Below are positions 3,681 to 45,665 of a DNA stretch of 64,000 nucleotides, piece by piece; position 1 is the first letter of the stretch, and the number at the start of each line of letters is the position of its first letter. The DNA is from Thermoanaerobacterium sp. RBIITD. Lineage in GTDB: Bacteria > Bacillota > Thermoanaerobacteria > Thermoanaerobacterales > Thermoanaerobacteraceae. The stretch is from positions 1,426,001 through 1,490,000 of the forward strand of contig NZ_LT906662.1 in the NCBI RefSeq assembly GCF_900205865.1. The letters run 5' to 3'. The position numbers and the translations under genes were made by a program. The notes beneath the pieces were generated by a model that saw nothing but the letters and a program-made list of their open reading frames with translations, was not told where the DNA came from and searched no databases.

Positions 3681-3711
3681 AAAATAGAGGTTTTTAAGCC
3701 TCTATTTTTTA
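3681..3711. terminator. Bidirectional terminator between remB and gatD
   Basis: The stem aaatagagg / cctctattt encloses a short T-rich loop, with A-tracts on one side and T-tracts on the other. It can therefore end transcription of remB on the plus strand and of murT-gatD on the minus strand. The minus-strand gatD stop codon overlaps it. Confidence 0.85.
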
Positions 3712-4433
3712 ACAAATCTTTTTATAATTGCGTTCTGTGTTATGTGTTCAAAAGAATCATCAAGCGGATCAATTTCTTTTTTACCGTATTTTCGGTTTAT
3801 GGCACTTTGTATAAGGATATCGGCAAATTCCGGGTTTTTCGGTAGAACAGGTCCGTGTAGATACGTTCCATAGGTATTTTTGTACATAGCACCTTCCATA
3901 TGGTCTTCGCCATTATTTCCATTTCCAGATATTACAATTCCTAAAGGCTTTATATTTTCTAAATACGTCTTTCCAGAATGGTTTTCAAACCCTACCATTT
4001 TAAATTTTTTTCCATTTAAATCTGCTTCTATTATTACATTTTCGATCATCCTTCTATTTCCAGCGACGGTATAAGCATCTAATGCACCGATTCCAGGCAA
4101 TTTATTTCCTGTACCAGTTTTGTAGTATTTCCCGAGCAATTGATAACCACCACAAATGCTTAAAACTGTGAGGTAATCATTTATGGCAGCTTTTAAATTC
4201 TTTGCTCTTTTTAATGTTAGGTCGTCGCTTACAATTTTTTGTTCTCTGTCAGATCCACCGCCGAGAAATAGTATATCCACATCTGTAAAATTAGTCTTCG
4301 TATCAACCATTATTGGTTTTACTTCAACATCAATACCTCTCCATTCACATCTTCTTTTTAATGTTAATATGTTGCCCCTGTCACCATAAAGGTTTAAAAG
4401 GTCTGGGTACATGTGTCCGATTACTAATTTCAT
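3702..4433 (-). CDS. gatD: Lipid II isoglutaminyl synthase, glutaminase subunit GatD
   Basis: 243 residues of a class-I glutamine amidotransferase of the CobB/GatD type. The nucleophile Cys lies in LSICGGYQLLG and the catalytic His in YGTYLHGPVLPKNPEFAD. GatD releases ammonia from glutamine for MurT, which amidates D-Glu of lipid II to D-isoglutamine. The start overlaps the murT stop by 4 bp, so the pair is translationally coupled. It is convergent with remB. GatD itself is intact, although its partner gene is frameshifted. Confidence 0.93.
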   Translation of the reverse strand: MKLVIGHMYPDLLNLYGDRGNILTLKRRCEWRGIDVEVKPIMVDTKTNFTDVDILFLGGGSDREQKIVSDDLTLKRAKNLKAAINDYLTVLSICGGYQLLGKYYKTGTGNKLPGIGALDAYTVAGNRRMIENVIIEADLNGKKFKMVGFENHSGKTYLENIKPLGIVISGNGNNGEDHMEGAMYKNTYGTYLHGPVLPKNPEFADILIQSAINRKYGKKEIDPLDDSFEHITQNAIIKRFVKK

Positions 4434-5805
4434 TTTTTAACACCTCTTGACCTCATATAACTATTTACTTCATGCAACGATGTATAATTCGGAAGGATTG
4501 CAATAAGCTCATCTTTTGTGACTAATGGTATATAATCGAGGGCTTTTTCAATGGAATTTATTATCTTTATTTTTTTTGGGTCAACTCCGGCATATTTAAG
4601 TCTTAAAGCCATATCCTCTGCCCTCAAGCCTGATGTTACAACATTGTTTATAGTTGTATGTGATACAAAATTTTCAATATCAACATCCCAGAGCCATGAA
4701 ACATCTCTTCCATCTGCGTAATTATCATTTATCGCAATTAAGAGGTTTAATGGTTTATTTATTTCCCTCAACATGTTTAAAGTGCTATCAAAGCCTATTG
4801 GATTTTTAATGAGGTTTATAATAACCTTCTTATCGTTTAAGTATGTTGTCTGTAACCTCCCTGCAATTGGCTTATAGTTTAATAGGCCCTTTTCTATGTC
4901 ATTTAAAGGTACATCAAGTAATAGATTTACTGCAACAGCTGCCATTACATTATAAACATTATAAGCACCTGTGAGATGACTTTTTATCTTAATAAAATTA
5001 TTTTTATATTTTATCTTAAATGATATGCCATCTTCGCTAAAATCAATATCCAATGCACCAAAGTCAAGGTCTGGTCTTGTTTTACCACAGGAAGGACAGT
5101 AATAATCCCCCAATTGTCCGTAGAAAACCTCTCTATATATGTATTTTTTACCACAAACGGGGCAGTATTTCTGTTCAAAAGCAGGCGATAATTTGTAACC
5201 CCTGTTTAGATGATCATATATGCCGTAATACATTACTTTTAAATTTAAACTGTCACCTATAGCTGCTGTAAATGGTTCATCGGCATTCAATAGCAATATT
5301 GTATCATTTGGCAACTTATTTAAAGATTCTTTTACTTTTTTTATCGTTGTATCAAGCTCACCATATCTATCAAGCTGATCTCTAAAAAAATTCGTTATAA
5401 CGACAATCTTAGGCTTTATATCATTAAGTATTAAAGGCATATTCGCTTCATCGATTTCGAAAACTCCCATATCTGCATCAACTTTACCCAAAGTACTGCT
5501 ATCCTTTATGAGTACTGTAGCAATACCACTTAACATATTAGCACCTTCTCTTTAGCACCTTCTCTGTTGTGAACAACTTTTTTCTTCGATGCTTTTAAAA
5601 TACTTGCAATAAGTCCAGATGTAGTTGTTTTTCCATTTGTACCTGTTATTGCTACTTTCTCGTTTTTAATACCGTTAATCAGATCTTTTATTATATTAGG
5701 ACATAATTTTAGAGTAAGTTTTCCTGGAAGTGACGTTCCACCCTTGCCTGTTATTTTACAAGCTAATAATACTATTTTACCAAACGTAACACCTAATAAA
5801 TCCAA
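4430..5805 (-). pseudogene. murT: Lipid II isoglutaminyl synthase MurT, frameshifted by a 14-bp duplication
   Basis: Two minus-strand frames together make a complete MurT. Bases 5530-5805 (TTG start with aaggtgg site) encode the N-terminus with the P-loop AITGTNGKTTT and end at ...VVHNREGA followed by six foreign residues. Bases 4430-5536 resume at MLSGIATVLI and carry a Cys4 zinc ribbon (CPVCGKKY...CPSCGKTR) and the C-terminal domain with NDNYADGRDVSWLWD. Removing one copy of the duplication at 5538-5565 joins ...HNREGA to NMLSGI in one frame. The second part's ATG overlaps the first part's stop (ATGTTAA) with a gaaggtg site, so two coupled polypeptides remain possible. Sequencing error or slip-reversible variation are alternatives. 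Confidence 0.85.
5538..5565. repeat. Perfect 14-bp tandem duplication inside murT
   Basis: The plus-strand unit ttagcaccttctct occurs twice without a gap, at 5538-5551 and 5552-5565. Fourteen is not a multiple of three, so the duplication shifts the murT frame. One copy suffices to restore the family sequence, which makes the duplication the recent event. Confidence 0.95.
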
Positions 5806-11858: not shown

Positions 11859-11876
11859 TTAGAAGGAGGTGATATT

Positions 11877-12383
11877 ATCAGGCATGTTATATCAGTATTA
11901 GTAAATAATCATTCTGGGGTACTGTCAAGGGTTGTTGGCCTTTTTTCAAGAAGGGGCTACAACATAGAAAGCCTTGCAGTCGGTACTACCGAGCAGAACG
12001 ACCTATCTCGGATTACTTTAACAGTCGAAGGCGACGATTATGTAATAACCCAGATCATAAGACAGCTTAGCAAATTGTATGATGTCAAAAAAGTTCAGGA
12101 CGTCGGGGCATATGAAAATGTGTCGAGAGAACTTTTATTAGTAAAAGTAGAAATGAATTCCAATAACCGAGATGACATCATGCAGATAGTTGAAACCTTC
12201 AGGGGGAAAGTCATTGACATTTCGTTAAACTCGCTTATCATCGAAATCACTGGTGATAGTGAAAAGGTAAATGCATTTATCAAACTTATTAAGCAATTTC
12301 AAGTCAGAGAACTTACAAGAACAGGTCTTATTTCGCTCGAAAGAGGCAATAAAATTTTAAAAGAATATGAGGAGGAAATTTAA
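11877..12383 (+). CDS. ilvN: Acetolactate synthase small (regulatory) subunit, non-ATG start
   Basis: About 168 residues. The frame is open from the ribosome site and reads (I)[18 protein letters not shown], then [16 protein letters not shown], the ACT domain typical of IlvN, which confers valine feedback on IlvB. No ATG, GTG or TTG exists in frame between the aaggaggt site (11863-11870) and this conserved N-terminus. The codon where homologs have Met is ATC (11877), with ATT three bases earlier. The ATG at 11884 is out of frame. Initiation at ATC or ATT is therefore likely. It directly follows the T-box terminator and precedes ilvC. Confidence 0.88.
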
Positions 12384-36907: not shown

Positions 36908-36942
36908 GAGGGTATGTGTCGTAAGATGCATACCCTTTTTGA
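36908..36942 (+). terminator. Terminator after tRNA-Arg(ACG)
   Basis: Stem agggtatg / catacccttt with a T-run; probably ends the tRNA transcript at the island border. Confidence 0.8.
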
Positions 36943-36966
36943 TTGCGAGTTGATTGCGAGTTGAAA
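36939..36966 (+). repeat. Paired direct repeats near attL (possible integrase arm sites)
   Basis: ttgattgcgag followed directly by ttgattgcgag and ttgaaa. Nearly the same array occurs at 45638-45665 near attR. Confidence 0.7.
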
Positions 36967-45637: not shown

Positions 45638-45665
45638 TGATTGCGAGCTGATTGCGAACTGAAAA
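45638..45665 (+). repeat. Paired direct repeats near attR (possible integrase arm sites)
   Basis: ttgattgcgag, ctgattgcgaa, ctgaaa: the same array as at 36939-36966 with three substitutions. Confidence 0.7.

Follow-up and report, generated by a model that had tools for sequence, protein, structure and literature searches.

The murT–gatD locus

In the heat-loving bacterium Thermoanaerobacterium sp. RBIITD, the minus-strand gene murT is frame-shifted by two adjacent perfect copies of the 14-bp segment TTAGCACCTTCTCT (plus strand, 5538-5565). All coordinates refer to the window, that is, the whole 64-kb stretch of DNA that was analysed. A perfect repeat at this place had been reported in a preliminary description of the locus, and the two identical copies bear this out. 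The gene now occupies two open reading frames, ORF1 (5805-5530) and ORF2 (5536-4430), which overlap at ATGTTAA; as had been described, the ATG of the second overlaps the stop codon of the first. The locus comprises the following features:

5538-5551, no strand assigned: first copy of the repeat, TTAGCACCTTCTCT
5552-5565, no strand assigned: second copy, identical to the first; the segment is single-copy in all inspected relatives
5530-5805, minus strand: murT ORF1, 91 aa, TTG start, MurT residues 1-84 followed by 7 out-of-frame ones, ending with the stop codon TAA at 5532-5530
5626-5643, minus strand: P-loop GTNGKT of MurT, within ORF1 (equivalents of K59 and T60; function of K59/T60, PMC6113224)
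4430-5536, minus strand: murT ORF2, 368 aa, ATG start, remaining central domain, Cys4 zinc ribbon and MurT C-terminal domain
5544-5548, minus strand: Shine-Dalgarno (SD)-like GAAGG, located 7 nt before the ATG of ORF2 and likewise found within intact murT of relatives
5552-5554, minus strand: at the duplication junction, a TAA in frame with ORF2, blocking rescue by any frameshift further upstream
3702-4433, minus strand: intact gatD of 243 aa, which overlaps the stop codon of murT (ATGA)

Pfam and NCBIfam searches assign ORF1 to the N-terminal part of the MurT profiles and ORF2 to the remainder, with the break after residue 84. This agrees with the earlier claim that the frame is broken between the P-loop region and the rest of the protein. 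In ORF1, the seven foreign residues take the place of the last part of the conserved motif EGAN, and the start methionine of ORF2 is an internal methionine of intact MurT. The P-loop central domain and the C-terminal domain are spread over two ORFs instead of being encoded as a single chain. In its sequence, murT-gatD order, P-loop, Cys4 zinc ribbon and catalytic residues, the locus resembles the MurT/GatD lipid II isoglutaminyl synthase of Staphylococcus aureus (6GS2/6H5E) and Streptococcus pneumoniae (6FQB), from which it differs in that murT occupies two frames. Since the murT stop codon is overlapped by gatD, translation of gatD is probably coupled to that of murT. No second murT was found in the RBIITD genome, and a search of the plasmid collection gave no match. 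The murT duplication is the perfect tandem duplication with the longest unit in the window, and perfect tandem repeats with a unit of 12-30 nt were absent from 20 first-order Markov (dinucleotide) simulations of 64 kb.

Relatives and the age of the duplication

The locus was compared with that of 19 relatives from the same family, represented by one genome per species. In all eight congeners (8/8) and all eleven other family members inspected (11/11), the segment is present once and the MurT frame is uninterrupted. The recurrence expected of a phase-variable locus is absent among these 19 species, and no family member has murT split at this place, as a split conserved in other lineages would require. 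Intact orthologs in close relatives are what is expected for a recent frameshift pseudogene. The murT of one relative (G008) is clipped by a contig end and is intact over its readable length. An in-frame TAG in G019, which would have made its murT another broken one within the family, proved to be the normal end of a slightly shortened protein.

On the level of the phylum, the MurT C-terminal domain is encoded in 98 of 299 genomes and was not found in 201, among them one from the same order (G020), so that many related lineages can do without MurT. With its 373 aa, the RBIITD open frame is the sole short one from a finished genome among the PF08353 carriers that were listed for the phylum. Short frames around the MurT C-terminal domain also occur in two draft genomes, G244:C209 (252 aa), which lies near a contig start, and G272:C133 (184 aa). 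A literature search for papers that speak of murT as split, truncated or frameshifted, in these phrases, found none.

The protein sequences carry no sign of decay. Relative-rate counts of amino-acid changes in ORF2 were 13 for RBIITD vs 31 for the comparison genome G001 with G009 as outgroup, and 18 vs 19 with G016; those for gatD likewise gave no excess on the RBIITD branch, so that neither gene shows accelerated evolution by this measure. Between the ORF2 sequences of RBIITD and G001, dN (0.125) is low compared with dS (1.62), the latter being near saturation. Alignment to the S. aureus protein shows that the residues critical for activity are still encoded, K59 and T60 in ORF1 and, in ORF2, the residues that correspond to E108 and D349. 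Because the two copies are identical, murT and gatD have not evolved faster and the checked catalytic residues are kept, the duplication looks very recent. Of the options offered in the preliminary description, a recent mutation is thus well supported, with all inspected relatives in the family intact and no sign of relaxed selection.

It is quite improbable that the duplication is a sequencing or assembly artefact and that RBIITD really has one copy of TTAGCACCTTCTCT. Random errors in PacBio reads mostly affect single bases; a consensus with a clean 14-bp duplication would be unlikely and atypical of them. Among about 40 window genes compared with those of G001, murT is the only one with a broken frame; other flags, which might have pointed to a general decay of the assembly, came from unremarkable differences at C-termini or starts (TadA, IlvN) or from spurious ORFs, either antisense or in the rRNA region. 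The genome consists of one contig of 3,402,993 bp with a completeness of 99.99%. It was assembled with HGAP from PacBio RS reads alone and without short-read polishing, which would leave room for an error, but at a coverage of 164.7x (PMC5764936). The assembly error considered earlier is accordingly unlikely.

Routes to the second fragment

The SD-like GAAGG in front of ORF2 has a dG of -6.7 kcal/mol, a value that ranks in the top 6% for all ATGs of the window. Combined with the stop/start overlap, this ribosome-site-like sequence gives the arrangement expected of a split gene with coupled translation. The plausible ribosome site proposed for ORF2 therefore exists, but the same signal is found in intact relatives, which have an equal or stronger SD-like site (-7.6 to -8.9) at the same place before the same ATG. 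In the conserved motif (R/K)EGANM, this ATG encodes the methionine and the GAAGG ahead of it encodes E-G. Because both elements pre-exist in relatives as coding sequence of this motif, the restart signal is incidental and no adaptation. All intact murT genes of relatives (e.g. L008, L013, and L016) have the SD-like site and the ATG at the internal EGANM, and a shorter MurT product made by internal initiation is conceivable in these species.

Other routes into the ORF2 frame were considered. No slippery heptamer of the type X_XXY_YYZ occurs in the 22 nt over which both frames are open, and the duplication itself creates the TAA at 5554-5552, which closes the ORF2 frame just upstream of its ATG. 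Programmed frameshifting was rejected on both grounds, and transcript slippage at an upstream A6 run would hit the same TAA. A frame-restoring recoding signal is thus missing from murT, which is a second feature of recent frameshift pseudogenes. The mRNA fold around the break is only mildly more stable than that of shuffled sequences (z -1.8). Given the junction TAA and the lack of a slippery heptamer in the overlap, reinitiation would, as far as can be read from the sequence, be the sole plausible route to ORF2. The singleton frameshift genes of the GeneTack survey, which were attributed to indel mutation or sequencing error (PMC3711429), are comparable in that they are confined to one genome, have no recoding motif and have intact relatives. 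RBIITD murT differs from them in its cause, a 14-bp duplication, and in having a chance restart codon.

Reinitiation could in theory sustain a tolerated split enzyme, in which co-translated ORF1 and ORF2 products reassociate as an active MurT that works with GatD. The ATGTTAA overlap with its SD-like site and the presence of every checked catalytic residue on one fragment or the other are in line with this idea, which we nevertheless regard as very improbable. The SD-like site and the ATG are already present in intact homologs and hence are no mark of selection for splitting, and no family member is split at this position. The break also parts the P-loop and T60 from E108 inside one nucleotide-binding domain. 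T60 and E108 (S. aureus numbering) both coordinate Mg and now sit on different fragments, and mutating either of them abolishes the activity of S. aureus MurT (PMC6113224). In addition, ORF1 has the seven foreign residues in place of the end of the EGAN motif. The tolerated split protein of the preliminary description is weakened by these observations. An AlphaFold prediction of the MurT of an intact relative, made without an alignment, reached a mean pLDDT of 40.6 and was not used.

A probable loss of MurT function or a possible reversible switch

The explanation that we consider likely is a recent inactivating 14-bp tandem duplication in the murT of RBIITD, a gene missing from many related bacteria. 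A very recent duplication would have thrown murT out of frame, and RBIITD, or its sequenced stock, would most likely be without functional MurT, so that the amidation of D-iGlu in lipid II would be absent or much reduced. Ribosomes that halt at the TAA at 5532-5530 would probably reinitiate at the ATG, which lies 4 nt upstream, and produce the 368-aa remainder; without the P-loop, the likely sole effect of this fragment would be to maintain the translational coupling of gatD. While we thus infer that enzyme activity has been lost, S. aureus and S. pneumoniae are species in which MurT-GatD is either essential or important (PMC6085368, PMC6113224, PMC3266927), and a null mutation might be costly. 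Tolerance of the loss in RBIITD is plausible because many clostridia, including a genome from the same order, are without MurT.

A perfect, adjacent and frame-changing tandem repeat without decay is also what is expected of a phase-variable allele, in which the duplication arises and collapses by slipped-strand events or recombination and cultures mix murT-off and murT-on cells. Alleles of this kind, due to spontaneous duplication, are known from capsule genes of S. pneumoniae (type 3 locus, cap8E, and tts; Waite et al., 2001, 2003, cited after PMC4022640), where the duplications likewise lie within an ORF and switch off a surface-polymer gene, in principle reversibly. Since a 14-bp tandem repeat can in principle drop one copy and such capsule alleles are known, it is possible that the murT allele is reversible. 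RBIITD differs from the capsule cases, as they are cited there, in that another gene in one genome is concerned and that reversion, mixture and recurrence were not seen. Elsewhere, MurT and GatD changes have been linked to the response to phages and glycopeptides: resistance to phage SOCP was due in part to a MurT substitution (PMC4652380), and gatD mutants had altered vancomycin resistance (PMC6001138). A selective reason is therefore conceivable.

Nevertheless, a phase-variable murT is unlikely. The duplication is absent from every relative inspected, the junction has no microhomology (the match run is exactly 14), and perfect tandem duplications with a unit of at least 12 nt number 4 in 464 kb of RBIITD vs 4 in 480 kb of G001. 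The sampled RBIITD stretches thus contain no excess of such duplications, and a genome-wide repeat mutator was rejected. The reversible switch suggested earlier draws on the tandem-repeat structure, and neither the relatives nor the repeat content of the genome add to it. That RBIITD toggles lipid II amidation via the 14-bp repeat, or else runs a two-piece MurT by coupled reinitiation, is distinctly unlikely.

The exact duplication without microhomology would also fit the footprint of an insertion element, a 14-bp target duplication left after excision, and several multi-copy transposons are present in the RBIITD genome. Such a footprint would entail the same loss of function and concern only the origin of the mutation; it is extremely improbable, as no evident 14-bp target duplications were found at the ends of the three multi-copy transposon groups examined.

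If the inactivated allele is real and fixed, RBIITD would be a natural murT knock-out beside intact sister species, useful for asking what role D-iGlu amidation plays in clostridia, many lineages of which are without it. If both copy numbers coexist, the repeat would be a simple means of turning a modification of the cell wall on and off. Failing both, the duplication would be one more recent loss-of-function mutation.

Further short tandem repeats were observed elsewhere. At L075:9366-9399, a perfect 16-bp tandem of CTATGAGGAATTGAAA, which resembles the tail of a CRISPR repeat, lies just upstream of a cmr1-like gene (named by eye). In the window, near-identical tandem 11-mers, TTGATTGCGAG and TGATTGCGAAC, are found at 36939-36964 and 45638-45662, both seemingly intergenic. 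Also in the window, an ilvN-like gene (about 11870-12383, plus strand) has no ATG, GTG or TTG at its conserved beginning, where ATT ATC AGG CAT comes after GAAGGAGGTGAT; G001, G005, and G007 share this arrangement, which suggests a conserved AUU or AUC start codon for this gene in the genus.
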